From positions 1 through 57,373 of the IMG/VR virus record IMGVR_UViG_3300027708_000084: a stretch of DNA of 57,373 nucleotides. One strand, given 5' to 3'. This stretch comes from a virus. The notes beneath the pieces are model-generated. The model did no database searches. It was given only the letters and a program-made list of their open reading frames with translations, and was not told where the DNA came from. A program made the position numbers and the translations under genes. Shown one piece after another: positions 17,210-29,787 of the stretch (positions are counted from its first letter, which is position 1; every line of letters starts with the position of its first letter).

Positions 17210-17644
17210 ATGAGAAATTTAGAAAACCTTTTTGGTTTTACTGGAGTTGATAAACACTTTGTAGGTTTTGATACTATTGCTGATCGTTTTGCTAAAATCA
17301 ATGCCGAACTTGCAAAAAATACCAGTTACCCACCCTATAATATTTGTAAGACGGGTGATACTAGTTATTTGATTGAAATGGCTGTTGCTGGTTTTAGTAA
17401 AAGTGAAATTGATATTGAAATTACTGAAGGTAAACTAGTTATCAAAGGTAACATAGATAGTGAAAAGTATTCTGAAAAAGAATACCTATTCAAGGGATTA
17501 GCTAACAGATCATTTACTAGAACTTTTGTACTAGAAGATGAAATTGAAATTAAAGGCGCAACTTTAGTAGATGGTATTCTTTCAATTGAATTAGAAAGAA
17601 TTGTTCCAGATACAAAGAAACCAACAAAAATTACTGTAAAGTAA
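17210..17644 (+). CDS. Hsp20-family small heat-shock protein, 144 aa
   Basis: Alpha-crystallin domain at about residues 40-140: YNICKTGDTSYLIEMAVAGFSKSEIDIEI, then LVIKG, YLFKGLANRSFTRTFVL and GILSIELERIVP. N-terminal arm LFGFTGVDKHF is typical of IbpA-like proteins found in cyanophages and T4-like phages. Holdase that keeps unfolded proteins soluble. RBS GGAG precedes ATG. Lies near the tmRNA and ClpP-like genes, consistent with a protein-quality theme. Confidence 0.88.
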   Translation: MRNLENLFGFTGVDKHFVGFDTIADRFAKINAELAKNTSYPPYNICKTGDTSYLIEMAVAGFSKSEIDIEITEGKLVIKGNIDSEKYSEKEYLFKGLANRSFTRTFVLEDEIEIKGATLVDGILSIELERIVPDTKKPTKITVK

Positions 17645-19235: not shown

Positions 19236-20102
19236 ATGAAAATCGCAGTTTGCTCAGACTTGCACTTAGAGTTTGATACATTAACACTAAAAAATACTGA
19301 AAACGCACAAGTTTTAATCTTGGGCGGAGATATTTGCGTGGCTCGTGATTTACTGGACAAAGATAGCGTAGAAATATTTGACAGATTTGATCGTAGCGGT
19401 GGACTACACGAATTCTTCCAAATGTGCTGCCGTAACTTTAGTCACGTTGTGTATGTTGCTGGTAATCACGAGCACTACAACGGCGACTATGCCAAAACTT
19501 TTACAATTCTGCGTGATAGACTAGCGTACTTGCCCAACCTACACATCTTAGACAAACAAACATTTGTATTAGATGACGTTACCTTTATTGGCGGCACGCT
19601 GTGGACTGACATGAATAACGAAGACAGCATGACCTTACGTCATATCAAAGGCATGATGAATGATTTTCGTTGTGTCAATAATAGTAATAGTATAGTCAAT
19701 TTCAAGACGTTTGATGAAAATGGTAATGCTGAATTCAAAACACGTGTTGCTAAATTTTTACCAGAAGATGCTGTTGCAGACCACAAACTAATGATGAGTT
19801 ATGTTGCTGAAGTTATTTCAGGCAAATTTGACAAAAAGTTTGTGGTTGTTGGGCATCATGCTCCTAGTAAGGCATCAACTCATCCTCGCTATAAGTATGA
19901 AGAATTAATGAATGGTGCTTATAGCAGCGATCTAGATGACTTTATAATCGATCATCCACAAATCAAATTGTGGACTCATGGTCACACTCATGAAGACTTT
20001 GACTATCAAGTTGGCTCAACCAGAGTAGTTTGCAATCCACGTGGTTACGCAAACTATGAAGATCGTGCTGACAAGTTTCAGTTAAAGTTTGTAGAAGTAT
20101 AA
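19236..20102 (+). CDS. calcineurin-like metallophosphoesterase, 288 aa
   Basis: Metal-binding motifs in order: CSDLHLEF (5-12), LGGDICV (about 30), VAGNHEHYNGDY (about 73), GHHAPS (about 208) and THGHTHEDFDYQ (about 246). Acts on phosphoesters; the substrate cannot be inferred. Distinct from the SbcD/gp47-like protein at 38440. Ends 2-3 bp before the tmRNA acceptor piece. Confidence 0.85.
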   Translation: MKIAVCSDLHLEFDTLTLKNTENAQVLILGGDICVARDLLDKDSVEIFDRFDRSGGLHEFFQMCCRNFSHVVYVAGNHEHYNGDYAKTFTILRDRLAYLPNLHILDKQTFVLDDVTFIGGTLWTDMNNEDSMTLRHIKGMMNDFRCVNNSNSIVNFKTFDENGNAEFKTRVAKFLPEDAVADHKLMMSYVAEVISGKFDKKFVVVGHHAPSKASTHPRYKYEELMNGAYSSDLDDFIIDHPQIKLWTHGHTHEDFDYQVGSTRVVCNPRGYANYEDRADKFQLKFVEV

Positions 20103-20103
20103 T

Positions 20104-20440
20104 TTATTGTTGTATGAAGCAACGAGAACCGTGTCTTGGACGGGGGTGCGAATCCCCCCACCTCCACCATAAGGATTTTTATGTTTGATGAATGGCATTG
20201 GGTTTATCTATGGGGCATATTAATTTGGATAAATTATATGTTCTGTCTCATAAAAAGTCTTTATGATGGGGGTGACTAGTTTCGACAGGGCAAGTAGTAG
20301 CAGAGTGGACAACACATCAGAGCAGATGTTAAAACTAAACAAAAGTAAACGCAAACGACTCACAGTTCGCATTAGCAGCTTAAACACTGCTTAGGGTTTT
20401 TGGTAGGTTTCCTCGTAACAGAATAACCTACCGCTTTACT
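20104..20440 (+). ncRNA. ssrA: permuted two-piece tmRNA; tag ANDSQFALAA
   Basis: The gene is circularly permuted. The acceptor piece (about 20104-20169) comes first, with a T-arm GGGGG-TGCGAAT-CCCCC and CACCTCC-A-CCA end. The coding piece (20268 to about 20440) begins GGGGGTG, pairing 7/7 with CACCTCC including a G3-U70 wobble, the alanine identity signal. GTTTCGACAGG follows as in other tmRNAs. The resume codon GCA (20351) opens the tag ANDSQFALAA ending at TAA (20381-20383). The E. coli tag is ANDENYALAA. A pseudoknot-type stem lies at 20402-20409/20425-20432. Piece ends away from CCA and GGGGG are approximate. It rescues stalled ribosomes and tags products for ClpXP/ClpAP. Confidence 0.92.
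20181..20279 (+). CDS. small membrane ORF in the tmRNA intervening segment, 32 aa
   Basis: ATG 20181 with AAGGA 5 nt upstream, in the spacer that would be cut out between the two tmRNA pieces. The protein has one aromatic-rich hydrophobic stretch (VYLWGILIWINYMFCLI). Its last codons (GGG GGT GAC TAG) are read from the 5' end of the tmRNA coding piece, so ORF and tmRNA overlap by 12 nt. Could be real or chance; the RBS and composition favour real. Confidence 0.45.
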   Translation: MFDEWHWVYLWGILIWINYMFCLIKSLYDGGD

Positions 20441-20455
20441 AACGGATAAATAATT

Positions 20456-21064
20456 ATGGCAAATAAAAACACAAGCCTTTTTGACCCTAAACTGCTAGAT
20501 CTTGAAGGTGGTACAAATCACTTTTGCAAATCAGCTGCAAAATTGTATGAATTTTACCTAAGTGGTGACATTGGTTCACCTGAAGAATATATTGAATGGT
20601 TTGATGTTATTCGTAATGCCACATCCAGTGATACTATTCGCATCTACATTAACAGTGCAGGCGGAGATCTTTATACAACTCTACAATTTTTGCGTGTAAT
20701 GGGCGAAACTCAAGCCGAAATAATTACCAGTGTAGAAGGCGCTTGCATGAGTGCTGCTACTATGATATTTTTAAGCGGACACGTTCATGAAGTAACACCG
20801 CACTCACTATTTATGTTTCACAACTACAGTGCAGGAACATTTGGCAAAGGCGGAGAAATGTATGACCAAGTACAATTTGAACGCCGTTGGTCAGAAAACT
20901 TTATGGTAGAAGTGTACAAAGATTTTCTAACTGAAGACGAAATCAAATCTATGTTGAACAACAAAGACATTTGGTTAAGTTCTGAGGAAGTAATAAGCCG
21001 ACTAGAAGTAATCTACAAAAAACTAGAAGCTAAAAGAAATGATGTTGTGGCGTCTGTGGACTAA
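20456..21064 (+). CDS. ClpP-like serine protease, 202 aa
   Basis: ClpP/crotonase fold: IRIYINSAGGDLYTTLQFL (61-79) is the ClpP oxyanion/GGD segment; GACMSAATMIFLSG places the nucleophile at S99; MFHNYSAG gives H122; DIWLSSEEVI gives a probable D171. Length is the usual ClpP size. Some phage relatives are prohead proteases, but this one stands alone and sits directly downstream of the tmRNA, whose tags are ClpXP/ClpAP substrates. A functional link is an inference. RBS is weak (GGAT). Confidence 0.85.
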   Translation: MANKNTSLFDPKLLDLEGGTNHFCKSAAKLYEFYLSGDIGSPEEYIEWFDVIRNATSSDTIRIYINSAGGDLYTTLQFLRVMGETQAEIITSVEGACMSAATMIFLSGHVHEVTPHSLFMFHNYSAGTFGKGGEMYDQVQFERRWSENFMVEVYKDFLTEDEIKSMLNNKDIWLSSEEVISRLEVIYKKLEAKRNDVVASVD

Positions 21065-21546: not shown

Positions 21547-21620
21547 GCGGGTAAGCCTAAGGTAGGACGCCAGCCTTCCAAGCTGCGCTGAGTGGAGTTC
21601 GATTCTCCCTACCCGCTCCA
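21547..21620 (+). tRNA. tRNA-Gly (UCC)
   Basis: Loop CTTCCAA gives anticodon TCC; acceptor GCGGGTA pairs TACCCGC; U73; CCA encoded. The 27-43 pair of the anticodon stem is a C-C mismatch. Confidence 0.9.
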
Positions 21621-22118: not shown

Positions 22119-23567
22119 ATGAATTTTTTAGGAATACATACTGGTACACATGATTCTAATTTTACCTTTACAAGCGGTAAAAATATAAGGTATTTTAAAT
22201 CTGAAAGATTTAAACAGATAAAACATCACGCTTACTACGGTATTACTACTGAATTACTAAATGATTTAAAAAATTTTGGTATAGATATAAACAAACTAGA
22301 CGCTGTAGCAATATCAGGTCAGTTTAATTTGACAGATGCCGAAGAAAAACAATATCACTTATTAAAACAAACAGTATTTAACTGCGCTACTTACAGCGTA
22401 AATCACCATTATAGTCACGCATTAAGTTGTTTTCCTTTAGAAAATTATAATTTAGTTACTAAAAAATTTGTATTAGATGGAGCTGGTGTAAGCTCCTCTT
22501 CTGAAAAGCAGGATTACGAAACTATTTCAGTTTTTGATAATCAGGGAATTGTATTAAAAAAATATAGATTACCAGAAGTAATGTCTTTAGGTAGGGCGCT
22601 TAGAATTCTTGGGCAACATTGGAATCTAGAGGGCCATAGAACCGACCATGCGGGCAAGTTAATGGCATATCAGTCATATGGAAAAATTGACCTCTGTCTT
22701 ATAAAGCAACTTGAAAATCTAAATATAACACAAATAGAAAAATTATTTTCAAATCCCCCAACAGAACCCTGTCACGATTGGTTAAGAAATAGGCATTTTA
22801 TTAGTGAAAAAATAATTAATGACTTTTTTAAGTATTTAGCTTTAAATAGTGAATATATTTCTTACTCAGGTGGAGTAGCACATAATATACTAATTAACTC
22901 TCAGTTAAAACAGTGGAATAATAATATTGTTATTCCACCTCATTGTGGAGACGACGGAATATCATTAGGTCTAGTAGAGTTACTAAGACAAATATATCAA
23001 CAAGAACCTTTTATTAATACTGGATTTCCTTACTGGCAACAAGATGAAGTTAAAGAGCTGCCATCAAAAACAGTAATTAAAAAAGCAGCAGAAATGATTG
23101 CTAATGGTAAAATAATTGGTTGGTGCCAGGGTAAAGGTGAAATAGGTGCAAGAGCTTTAGGCAATCGCTCTATATTAATGAGAGCAGATCTGGTAGATGG
23201 AAAAGACATAATAAATACTAAAGTAAAACATCGAGAACACTATAGGCCTTTTGGGTGCAGCATTCTATTAGAAGATACAAATAAACACATGGACTGTAAT
23301 TTTTATAGCCCATATATGTTATACAGTGTTAATGTATCTGATTCATCTCTTAAATCTATAACTCACGTAGACGGAACCACTAGGCCTCAAACAGTAGTAG
23401 ATGGGTTGTTTTCAGAACTATTACTTGAAGTAAAAAAATTAACAGGTTCTTCTATAGTTTTAAATACTTCACTAAATGTTAATGGATTTCCAATAGCTAC
23501 ACCAGAATATGCTATAAATCTTAAACATAAACTAGATGGATTATTTATAGGCAATAGTTATATTTAA
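22119..23567 (+). CDS. NodU/TobZ-family carbamoyltransferase, 482 aa
   Basis: C-terminal half (about 315-475) matches the family strongly: GEIGARALGNRSILMRADLVDGKDIINTKVKHREHYRPFG, then HVDGTTRPQTVVDGL, GSSIVLNTSLNVNGFPI and TPEYAI. The N-terminal half has the YrdC-less Kae1-type fold, with SVNHHYSHALSCF and AISGQFNL. These enzymes move a carbamoyl group from carbamoyl-phosphate/ATP to a hydroxyl. In some phages related enzymes decorate hydroxymethylated bases; here the substrate is unknown. Shorter than NodU (about 560 aa). It sits in the tRNA cluster with a weak RBS. Confidence 0.82.
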   Translation: MNFLGIHTGTHDSNFTFTSGKNIRYFKSERFKQIKHHAYYGITTELLNDLKNFGIDINKLDAVAISGQFNLTDAEEKQYHLLKQTVFNCATYSVNHHYSHALSCFPLENYNLVTKKFVLDGAGVSSSSEKQDYETISVFDNQGIVLKKYRLPEVMSLGRALRILGQHWNLEGHRTDHAGKLMAYQSYGKIDLCLIKQLENLNITQIEKLFSNPPTEPCHDWLRNRHFISEKIINDFFKYLALNSEYISYSGGVAHNILINSQLKQWNNNIVIPPHCGDDGISLGLVELLRQIYQQEPFINTGFPYWQQDEVKELPSKTVIKKAAEMIANGKIIGWCQGKGEIGARALGNRSILMRADLVDGKDIINTKVKHREHYRPFGCSILLEDTNKHMDCNFYSPYMLYSVNVSDSSLKSITHVDGTTRPQTVVDGLFSELLLEVKKLTGSSIVLNTSLNVNGFPIATPEYAINLKHKLDGLFIGNSYI

Positions 23568-27374: not shown

Positions 27375-28013
27375 ATGAAACCAACAATAGCAGTTTTTAT
27401 TCACGATCCTTGGTGCGAGACCGATTGCGGCTTAGCAATGGCAGATTATTTTAAAAAGTATTTTACTGTAAAAATCATAGACTTAGATCACATAAACTCA
27501 GAGTTTCTAAACACAGTAGATGTGTTAGCACTTCCTGGTGGCATGGGTGATGCGGATGATTTTCACAATGTTTTTAGTTCTGCACAAATTAAAACTGTGC
27601 AAGACTGGGTATCTAATGGCGGTAAATACTTAGGCATTTGCATGGGTGCTTACTGGGCTGGCCCAAACTACTTTAATTTGGTTGTAGATTTAGAGGTTGA
27701 GCAGTATATTGCACAACCAACCGCAGATATTACAACTGATGAACCAACATTTGCTAACATAACTTGGAATAATGTTCCATACAATATGTACTTCTATGAT
27801 GGTTGTGCTATTTTAGGTAATGATATGGAAGTTGTAGCTGAGTATGCAAATGGTGATGCTATGGCTGCTATTCAGGAAAATGTAGGCATGATAGGTTGTC
27901 ATCCTGAAAGTGCAGAGTGGTGGTTTACTAGTGTTGATATGGATGCCTCACTGTTTGACCCACAACATGGTGAATTAATGTGTAATTTTGTACAAAGGTT
28001 AATAAACAAATGA
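27375..28013 (+). CDS. class I glutamine amidotransferase-like protein (BPL_N family), 212 aa
   Basis: ALPGGMGDADDF (about 53-64) and GKYLGICMGAYWAGPNYF (about 85-102), with the nucleophilic Cys in GICMG, are the class I glutamine amidotransferase nucleophile elbow. MYFYDGCAIL and IGCHPESAEWW follow, the latter with a His-x-Glu pair. The family is grouped with biotin-ligase N-terminal-type proteins. Whether it hydrolyses glutamine here is unknown. RBS AAAGGA. Confidence 0.8.
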   Translation: MKPTIAVFIHDPWCETDCGLAMADYFKKYFTVKIIDLDHINSEFLNTVDVLALPGGMGDADDFHNVFSSAQIKTVQDWVSNGGKYLGICMGAYWAGPNYFNLVVDLEVEQYIAQPTADITTDEPTFANITWNNVPYNMYFYDGCAILGNDMEVVAEYANGDAMAAIQENVGMIGCHPESAEWWFTSVDMDASLFDPQHGELMCNFVQRLINK

Positions 28014-28960
28014 CCAAGATTGAACAGTTTTTAGATTCCGCTTCAAAAGCTTATTATGCTGGTAGTCCTATTATTAGTGATGAACAGTTTGATAAGTTAG
28101 CGGATTCTATTGGCTATAATAAAGTAGGCTCAAAGCAGCATGAAAACAAGGAAAAACACTTATACCCAATGTACAGTCTTCAAAAATACTACGAAGACGA
28201 GGGAGTAAAACCGCTTGAAGGCATCAAAGATTTATCTTATAGTGTTAAACTTGATGGTGCTGCGGTTAGTTTACTTTACATAGATGGGCATTTAACCCGA
28301 GCACTAACTCGTGGCGATGGCACAGAAGGTCAGCTTATCACAGATAAGCTATTAGCCACTAAATTAGTGCCACTTGAAATCCCCTATAAGGGAGTAATCC
28401 AAATTACTGGAGAAATAGTAGCACCGATTAATATTGAAAATAGTCGTAACTATGCTGCTGGTTCACTAAATTTAAAAGATTTAAACGAATTTAAAACTCG
28501 TGCTCTTAGCTTTTTTGCCTATGGTGTTCAACCATGCCTACGCGATACTTTTGACCAAGACATGGCAGAATTAAAATCTTATGGTTTTGGTGTAATCAAG
28601 GAAAATGATTTAGATAAAATATTTCCTTGTGATGGTATTGTATTTCGTGTAAATAATAATAAACAATTTTACGAACTAGGATACACAGCCAAACACCCAA
28701 AAGGTGCTTTTGCTAAAAAGGAAAGAGCTGCTCATGTAGAAACTAAACTATTAGATGTTGAGTGGCAAGTAGGAAAAAGCGGAAAAGTAACCCCAGTTGC
28801 AATCTTAGAACCAGTTTATATTGGTGATGCACTTGTAAGTAGAGCTACACTAAACAACCCAGGTTTTATAGAATCACTAGACCTTCGTATAGGTGACACA
28901 GTTGCAGTGATTAGGTCTGGAGAAATTATTCCTTGTATTTTACATAAAGTAGATGCTTAA
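28010..28960 (+). CDS. ligA: NAD-dependent DNA ligase, adenylation + OB part, 316 aa
   Basis: The N-terminal half of a LigA-type ligase: YYAGSPIISDEQFDKL (domain Ia, NMN binding), then YSVKLDGAAVS with K80 as the AMP-accepting lysine. GELVAPxN-like GEIVAPINI, CDGIVFRVN and PKGAFAKKE follow, then an OB-like domain VGKSGKVTPVAILEPVYIGDALV. Domains after OB are encoded by the next gene. Phage T5 has a comparable two-gene NAD ligase. ATG is 4 nt inside the upstream gene's end. Confidence 0.9.
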   Translation: MTKIEQFLDSASKAYYAGSPIISDEQFDKLADSIGYNKVGSKQHENKEKHLYPMYSLQKYYEDEGVKPLEGIKDLSYSVKLDGAAVSLLYIDGHLTRALTRGDGTEGQLITDKLLATKLVPLEIPYKGVIQITGEIVAPINIENSRNYAAGSLNLKDLNEFKTRALSFFAYGVQPCLRDTFDQDMAELKSYGFGVIKENDLDKIFPCDGIVFRVNNNKQFYELGYTAKHPKGAFAKKERAAHVETKLLDVEWQVGKSGKVTPVAILEPVYIGDALVSRATLNNPGFIESLDLRIGDTVAVIRSGEIIPCILHKVDA

Positions 28961-29031: not shown

Positions 29032-29787
29032 ATGAAAATTGAAATACCTGTAAACTGTCCTTGCTGTTCGTATACACTTGAGATGATTAACGATCAACTC
29101 TTTTGTAGAAACACGGCTTGTGATGCACAGCTTACCAAAAAAGTTGAGCATTTCTGCAAGACTTTGGGTATCAAAGGCATGGGTGCTAAAACTATTGACA
29201 AATTAGGTTTGGCTGATATTACAGAGATTTTTTACTTAGATGAAGATCAAGTATCTAGTGCTCTGTCAAGTAAAGTATTAGCCACAAAATTAATCAATGA
29301 AATAGAAAAAGCCAAACAAGTTGATTTAGCCACAATTATTACATCATTTTCTATACCATTAGTAGGCAATACTGCCTCTAAAAAGATTTGTGCAGCCATC
29401 AATAATATTGATGAAATTACCTATGACAAATGTCGTGAGGCAGGTTTAGGCGATAAAGTTTCACAAAATCTAGTATCATGGTTAGAATCTGAGTTTCTAG
29501 AAGTAAGAGAATTCCTACCCTTCTCTTTTACTTCAGTAAAAGTCCAATTACAGAGTGGCGGAAAGTCCGTCTGTATTACTGGAAAACTATCTTCTTATAA
29601 GACAAAATCAGAAGCCTACAAAGCATTAGAAGAGGCAGGTTTCAAAGTTACGGAAACAGTAACGAAATCTACTGATTATCTTGTTGATGAAGATAGTAAG
29701 GGAAGCGCAAAACGTAAAAAAGCCGATGAACTCGGTATTACAATTATCCAAAACCTAAACACTTTCTTGAAAGAAAAACAAAAATGA
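29032..29787 (+). CDS. ligB: NAD-dependent DNA ligase, Zn finger + HhH + BRCT part, 251 aa
   Basis: A CPCC...FCRNTACDAQ zinc finger (about residues 9-34), then helix-hairpin-helix repeats (LGIKGMGAKTIDKL, FSIPLVGNTASKKI and AGLGDKVSQNLV). The last 75 residues (about 176-250) form a BRCT domain (GGKSVCITGKLSSYKTKSEAYK..., STDYLVDEDSKGSAKRKKADELG). This completes the ligase begun at 28010. Overlaps the next HTH gene by 4 nt. Confidence 0.9.
   Translation: MKIEIPVNCPCCSYTLEMINDQLFCRNTACDAQLTKKVEHFCKTLGIKGMGAKTIDKLGLADITEIFYLDEDQVSSALSSKVLATKLINEIEKAKQVDLATIITSFSIPLVGNTASKKICAAINNIDEITYDKCREAGLGDKVSQNLVSWLESEFLEVREFLPFSFTSVKVQLQSGGKSVCITGKLSSYKTKSEAYKALEEAGFKVTETVTKSTDYLVDEDSKGSAKRKKADELGITIIQNLNTFLKEKQK

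Follow-up and report, generated by a model that had tools for sequence, protein, structure and literature searches.

A circularly permuted tmRNA gene beside a ClpP-like peptidase gene in a phage contig

The tmRNA gene and its surroundings

The stretch of DNA analysed here (hereafter, the window) is an IMG/VR virus record, 57,373 bases long. Among its encoded proteins are matches to phage DNA polymerase, DnaB-like helicase, primase, an SbcCD pair, ribonucleotide reductase, endolysin and tail proteins, and the viral origin of the record together with the phage replication genes bears out the attribution of its tmRNA to a phage in an earlier note on this DNA. A NAD-dependent ligase is split over neighbouring ORFs (28010-28960 and 29032-29787) beside a D5-like regulator, which, by analogy with T5, suggests a T5-like replication module. 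The window is probably a genome fragment because head genes are absent among the proteins scanned; related contigs of about 100 kb exist.

ARAGORN places the tmRNA gene in a cluster of over a dozen tRNA genes; its composition and flanks are as follows.

19236-20102, + strand: metallophosphoesterase ORF, ending about 6 nt before the tmRNA (protein matches)
20108-20169, + strand: tmRNA acceptor piece, with the P2 5' strands, T arm, acceptor 3' strand and CCA (RF04321/RF01850 alignment; sequence)
20108-20112, + strand: distal P2 5' strand, partner 20310-20314 (relatives' pairing)
20132-20138, + strand: proximal P2 5' strand, partner 20286-20292 (relatives' pairing)
20142-20158, + strand: T arm GGGGG-TGCGAAT-CCCCC, stem 20142-20146/20154-20158, residue 55 = G at 20148 (sequence; relatives)
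20159-20169, + strand: acceptor 3' strand CACCTCC (20159-20165), A73 (20166) and CCA (20167-20169) (7/7 pairs with 20268-20274)
20170-20267, + strand: spacer of 98 nt, predicted to be removed in maturation, with complementary ends that lengthen the acceptor helix (fold; end-swap comparison)
20268-20438, + strand: tmRNA coding piece (mRNA-like domain), 3' limit approximate (RF01850 extent)
20268-20274, + strand: acceptor 5' strand GGGGGTG, holding G3 of the G3-U70 wobble (sequence; relatives)
20275-20289, + strand: D-loop region ACTAG-TTTCGAC-AGG, residue 18 = A at 20278 (sequence; relatives)
20280-20289, + strand: TTTCGACAGG (sequence)
20351-20383, + strand: tag frame, with resume GCA at 20351, ANDSQFALAA at 20351-20380 and TAA at 20381-20383 (ARAGORN)
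20402-20432, + strand: 3' hairpin GGTAGGTT...AACCTACC of the coding piece (relatives' pairing; fold)
20456-21064, + strand: ClpP-like peptidase ORF, 202 aa, triad S99-H122-D171 (Pfam, PHROG, Foldseek)

Rfam covariance models and ARAGORN agree on a circularly permuted (two-piece) tmRNA gene at about 20108-20438. The model RF04321 (tmRNA_permuted), which unites three older permuted tmRNA models (PMC11915505), matches over its complete length (model positions 1-213) at 20108-20383 with 119.7 bits (E=7.8e-23; curated cut-off, 47 bits), and RF01850 (beta_tmRNA) matches at 20045-20438 with 112.2 bits (E=2.2e-33; cut-off, 84 bits). The terminal G+C-rich hairpin of RF01850 is missing (at the 3' end, the alignment skips about 20 positions of the model), and for this reason we file the RNA as a permuted tmRNA with beta affinity rather than as a full beta_tmRNA. 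Membership in the alpha type (RF01849) was rejected at 49.4 bits, just below the cut-off of 50; with the RF01849 consensus, the window shares A18-G55 and the 3' motif AACAGAA. A standard one-piece tmRNA is excluded by the position of the CCA end, upstream of the coding piece, and by the fact that the permuted models alone match. ARAGORN calls a permuted tmRNA with the tag ANDSQFALAA.

The earlier note, made from the sequence alone, had placed such a gene at 20104-20440 and named the permuted Rfam models and ARAGORN as checks; the models match far beyond chance, ARAGORN concurs, and its span is a good one, given a core of 20108-20383 in the models and an extension to 20438 with the 3' hairpin region. 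The anatomy that it described also stands: the acceptor piece with CCA comes first, CACCTCC and GGGGGTG form seven pairs including the G3-U70 wobble (20270:20163), and the coding piece contains TTTCGACAGG, the resume GCA, the tag and TAA, so that a resume alanine codon, a hydrophobic tag end in -AA and a stop are all in place.

A scan for a promoter-like site upstream of the tmRNA gave nothing above chance. Several other genes of this block merit mention. An Hsp20 small heat-shock ORF (17210-17644; Pfam PF00011) is a second proteostasis gene; a large Nol-like carbamoyltransferase ORF (22119-23567; PHROG 1601, E=5e-125) resides inside the tRNA cluster; and a weak tRNA at 21547-21617 (30.8 bits; cut-off, 29), beside a tRNA-Glu and uncalled by ARAGORN, is possibly decaying or odd.

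Pairing between the two pieces

Two collections of relatives, one of 74 loci similar to the downstream protein and one of at least 120 viral contigs matching the tag pattern, together gave 78-79 distinct phage tmRNAs that were separable into two pieces. Among 78 distinct sequences, all 7 positions of P1 are paired in 78 of 78, with 4 of the 7 pairs doubly changed, a completeness that is partly by construction since the set admitted only tmRNAs with acceptor strands that the extraction script could pair. The variety of P1 pair types and the P2 helices are free of this bias: proximal P2 is 97% paired and distal P2 96%, with 5 doubly changed pairs in each. When the partners are slid by 1-2 bases, pairing is 20-62%, compared with 96-100% in the true registers of P1 and P2, the helices whose pairing the earlier note had wished to see examined. 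The 78 sequences are kin, so the counts of changes do not represent independent events, but the register controls retain the same relatedness. These compensatory changes between the pieces add to the model scores in favour of the two-piece reading. The wobble G3-U70 is invariant (78/78), the T stem is 100% paired with double changes in all 5 pairs, the hairpin 3' of P2 is 82% paired, and the 3' hairpin of the coding piece is 81% paired with 6 doubly changed pairs; the CCA and the resume frame are preserved. Covariation shows two pieces that would be held together by the acceptor stem and P2.

The spacer yields a further comparison. The energy of pairing between the two spacer ends averages -12.8 kcal/mol within the same phage vs -6.3 (sd 3.0) when ends are swapped between phages, the precursor fold is more stable than those of shuffled sequences (z=-2.86), and in the free fold, the acceptor helix runs into the spacer. 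The complementarity of the spacer ends matches a putative precursor in which the acceptor helix is lengthened through the spacer, and is consistent with a mature RNA that would consist of two pieces.

Residues 18 and 55, which reside in different pieces, change together. T-loop residue 55, in the acceptor piece, is G in 50 of the 78 relatives and U in 28; D-loop residue 18, in the coding piece, is A in exactly the 50 with G55 and G in exactly the 28 with U55, with no exception (in 2 of the 50 A18 sequences, one inserted base shifts the alignment, with the AG motif kept). Both states are seen across five different acceptor-stem backgrounds, which indicates that the switch was repeated or else spread by recombination. 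The window has A18-G55 (20278, 20148), the state of the Rfam alpha consensus, and G18-U55 is found in the Rfam beta consensus and in Cupriavidus. In tRNA, the contact between the D-loop and the T-loop is G18-Psi55. We read the 18:55 co-variation as probably reflecting this contact, with the A-G pairing itself putative; spread as it is over two separate RNA pieces, the co-variation lets the D-loop/T-loop contact of tmRNA be studied in a clean experiment of nature.

Tag, ClpP-like neighbour and proposed function

The tag is carried by at least 120 viral contigs. In contrast, among 84,980 prokaryote species genomes (one genome per species, contigs of at least 3 kb), the pattern AND-[S/T and similar]-QFALAA-TAA, with TAA obligatory, matched a single contig, L076, of 3,040 bases, which carries a tmRNA followed by a ClpP-like ORF within a 0.9-Mb MAG. 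No other permuted tmRNA was found in that MAG, and none over the cut-off in the rest of its class (188 genomes). Most simply, L076 would be a misbinned phage contig and, as such, names no host. The tag thus looks restricted to viruses and could be used as a marker for aquatic phage tmRNAs; other phage tmRNAs encode neighbouring tags, such as ANDNTYALAA and ANDQVYALAA. The tag sequence was not found in the published papers searched, a partial literature outside which lie subscription journals and most preprints. For the contigs L027/L192 (the same contig), L130 and L150, ARAGORN reports the longer tags VKTKQKVNANDSQFALAA, VNANDSQFALAA and AKKVNANDSQFALAA, which are probably not true extensions but the outcome of an upstream resume codon picked by the program.

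The ClpP-like ORF starts at 20456, 23 nt past the end of the 3' hairpin (20432). It matches Pfam PF00574 (CLP_protease) with 44.9 bits (cut-off, 20.2) and PHROG 1827 (E=8e-63), and Ser99, His122 and Asp171, which align with the triad of a solved ClpP, are invariant in 30 phage relatives. The predicted model has a mean pLDDT of 82.8, and its best PDB matches in Foldseek are all ClpP chains (TM 0.57-0.62, E ~1e-9), a moderate fit. By family and by Clp protease annotation, the ORF resembles the ClpP-like proteases of phages XacN1 and ICP1 (PHROG 1827); Xanthomonas phage XacN1 and Vibrio phage ICP1 provide the nearest cultured matches, with identity below 60% to any cultured phage record. Unlike these cultured-phage proteases, the window ClpP adjoins a tmRNA.

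In about two dozen distinct contigs, a permuted tmRNA precedes clpP by no more than ~200 nt. ARAGORN identifies this arrangement in the window and in L003, L005, L006, L009, L011-L014, L016, L018-L021, L025, L026, L031, L033, L038 and L076, the covariance model in L010, L029 and L073, and paired searches in L085. Because many of these contigs were found through ClpP, the tag-found set gives a fairer view of adjacency: a ClpP-like match is present in 14 of the 28 others that reach 50 kb, although the weak ones (42-54 bits) may be other ClpP-fold proteases, and 6 of the 14 matches are on the same strand within ~2.2 kb downstream of the tmRNA. The tmRNA does not need clpP, which is missing from about half of these long tmRNA-positive contigs. 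Nor was a tmRNA found beside clpP in nine clpP-positive relatives (L022, L028, L030, L032, L034-L037 and L072), where tRNAs are present. No report of the tmRNA-clpP adjacency was found in titles and abstracts on tmRNA, phage and ClpP, a body of literature that most preprints and subscription journals lie outside.

A search of 22 related records, the window included, found no SmpB, whereas ten control genomes gave the protein, so the host must supply it. No ClpX/ClpA C-terminal domain was found in the window; 5 of the 22 records have such a domain, and each of these five is 110 kb or longer. The source contigs of L114, L115, L153, L190 and L194 (112-349 kb) combine a tmRNA with an ANDSQFALAA-type tag, a ClpP-like match and a ClpX/ClpA-type C-terminal domain.

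Judging from structure and family, the gene very likely encodes a working permuted tmRNA that uses the SmpB, AlaRS and RNase P of the host, and we hold with equal assurance the joint proposition that such a working tmRNA is carried by a tailed phage genome with a T5-like replication module. Specifically, a single transcript would run through the tRNA/tmRNA cluster, with the ends of the 98-nt spacer lengthening the acceptor helix. Host RNase P would cut the 5' end of the coding piece, host 3' processing would bare the encoded CCA, and the acceptor stem and P2 would keep the pieces together. Charged by host AlaRS via G3-U70, the tmRNA would be delivered by SmpB and EF-Tu of the host to ribosomes that have stalled on broken mRNA, such as host message decaying in infection; translation would resume at GCA and append ANDSQFALAA, freeing the ribosome for phage messages. 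The LAA end would route the tagged product to Clp proteases; the earlier note had phrased this step as redirection to ClpXP/ClpAP, and the inference is sound. Degradation might then be boosted by the adjacent phage ClpP, which probably shares the transcript of the tmRNA and would act with host ClpX or ClpA, a plausible prediction to which we give somewhat less than an even chance. The full arrangement, in which a widespread group of aquatic phages carries a tag-and-degrade cassette, with the tmRNA writing a phage-only tag and ClpP from the same or a nearby transcript degrading the tagged products, is possible but unlikely; if true, proteolysis in phage time would be in part independent of the tag and the protease pool of the host. 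For the benefit that a phage draws from a tmRNA, earlier suggestions include the upkeep of the hijacked translation machinery and amino-acid recycling from tagged host proteins (PMC9004378). The recurrent tmRNA-clpP neighbourhood, the nearly virus-only tag and the lack of phage SmpB lead us to another, testable idea, that phages bring the tag and the peptidase and borrow the loader.

The strongest alternative, which has nearly an even chance of being correct, accepts a working tmRNA and assigns the neighbouring ClpP an unrelated job, such as maturing the capsid or turning over particular host proteins, with the adjacency reflecting a conserved tRNA-rich gene order. ClpP-like folds indeed act as head maturation proteases (PHROG 1684/94/133 matches), and the occurrence of tmRNA and clpP each without the other in the contigs described above fits this explanation. 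The specific role of a capsid protease is disfavoured, however, because a separate S78 prohead protease lies far from clpP in 8 of 12 related records, and the block is no head-gene region.

A much less probable explanation makes the RNA a decoy or inhibitor of host trans-translation that would titrate SmpB or sit on ribosomes, a role put forward for the TLD-only RNA described in mycobacteriophage DS6A (PMC4131195, PMC11915505). The phage tag is unlike bacterial tags, as could be expected of a decoy, but the mRNA-like domain is complete in the relatives, where its clean resume frame, hydrophobic end and stop, needless for that purpose, have all been kept. Least credible is a passenger acquired from a host along with the adjoining tRNAs and under no selection, for although the gene is set in a tRNA cluster and host tmRNA genes are known phage insertion sites (cited in PMC9004378), neutral drift would break the P1 pairs that compensatory changes maintain over divergent phages, and the tag so common on viral contigs is essentially absent from species genomes.

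Permuted tmRNAs in other phages and bacteria

Phage two-piece tmRNAs are already known as a kind, and the window adds another member. In the 2022 survey of Buchholz et al., tmRNA was detected in 402 of 18,146 phage genomes, and the 133 distinct structures included 53 two-piece ones, of which marine or aquatic samples supplied 50 (PMC9004378). Given these numbers and the many viral contigs with the present tag, the statement in the earlier note that phage tmRNAs are usually one-piece is out of date; its identification of a permuted, proteobacterial-type tmRNA holds, whereas the supposed rarity in phages does not, and the phage clpP just past the 3' hairpin had been overlooked. To this the present comparison adds a tag that looks restricted to viruses, the repeated presence of clpP next to the tmRNA and the co-variation of residues 18 and 55, none of which was found in the partial literature searched.

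Melnitz (a Methylophilales phage, L229) and Mosig (a Pelagibacter phage, L228) likewise encode permuted tmRNAs with the CCA-bearing acceptor piece first and scores above the RF04321 cut-off (PMC9004378). Unlike the window, both are alpha-type (RF01849 over the cut-off), their tags, ANDNYVPVDYALAA and GEDNFALAA, differ, and the next gene is a late-transcription coactivator or an accessory gene rather than clpP; Melnitz additionally has a glutamine riboswitch. Betaproteobacterial two-piece tmRNAs (RF01850; Cupriavidus L225 and L231) share gene order, anatomy and length class with the window but have the tag ANDEKFALAA, G18-U55 and the beta terminal hairpin, and score 284-289 bits with RF01850 vs 112 for the window. 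Huge phages, also large and environmental, reportedly carry both tmRNA and SmpB (Al-Shayeb et al. 2020, PMC7162821), in contrast to the SmpB-less set examined here. In a tree of 232 columns, to be read loosely given the short sequence, the window clusters with other environmental phage tmRNAs; the nearest named reference is Cupriavidus, at 0.95 substitutions/site, and the others, including cultured phages, are beyond 1.4.

Four permuted tmRNAs missed by ARAGORN were found with RF04321: L008 (189-519), L010 (5521-5851), L029 (2127-2439) and L073 (5040-5820), the last with an unusually long spacer. Direct DNA matches of the window tmRNA in cultured phages were none at E<=1e-5 and short matches alone at E<=10, yet the latter led to unannotated permuted tmRNAs in Alcaligenes phage QDWS595 (L226, OK149171.2; 2945-3292), Ruegeria phage RpAliso (L230, OR257569.1; 2864-3207), Caulobacter phage phiCbK (L232, JX163858.1; 1439-1878) and Xanthomonas phage Rb1 (L227, PQ569993.1; 2966-3394). 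The tmRNA of Xanthomonas is one-piece, so the permuted form in Rb1 would differ from that of its host.
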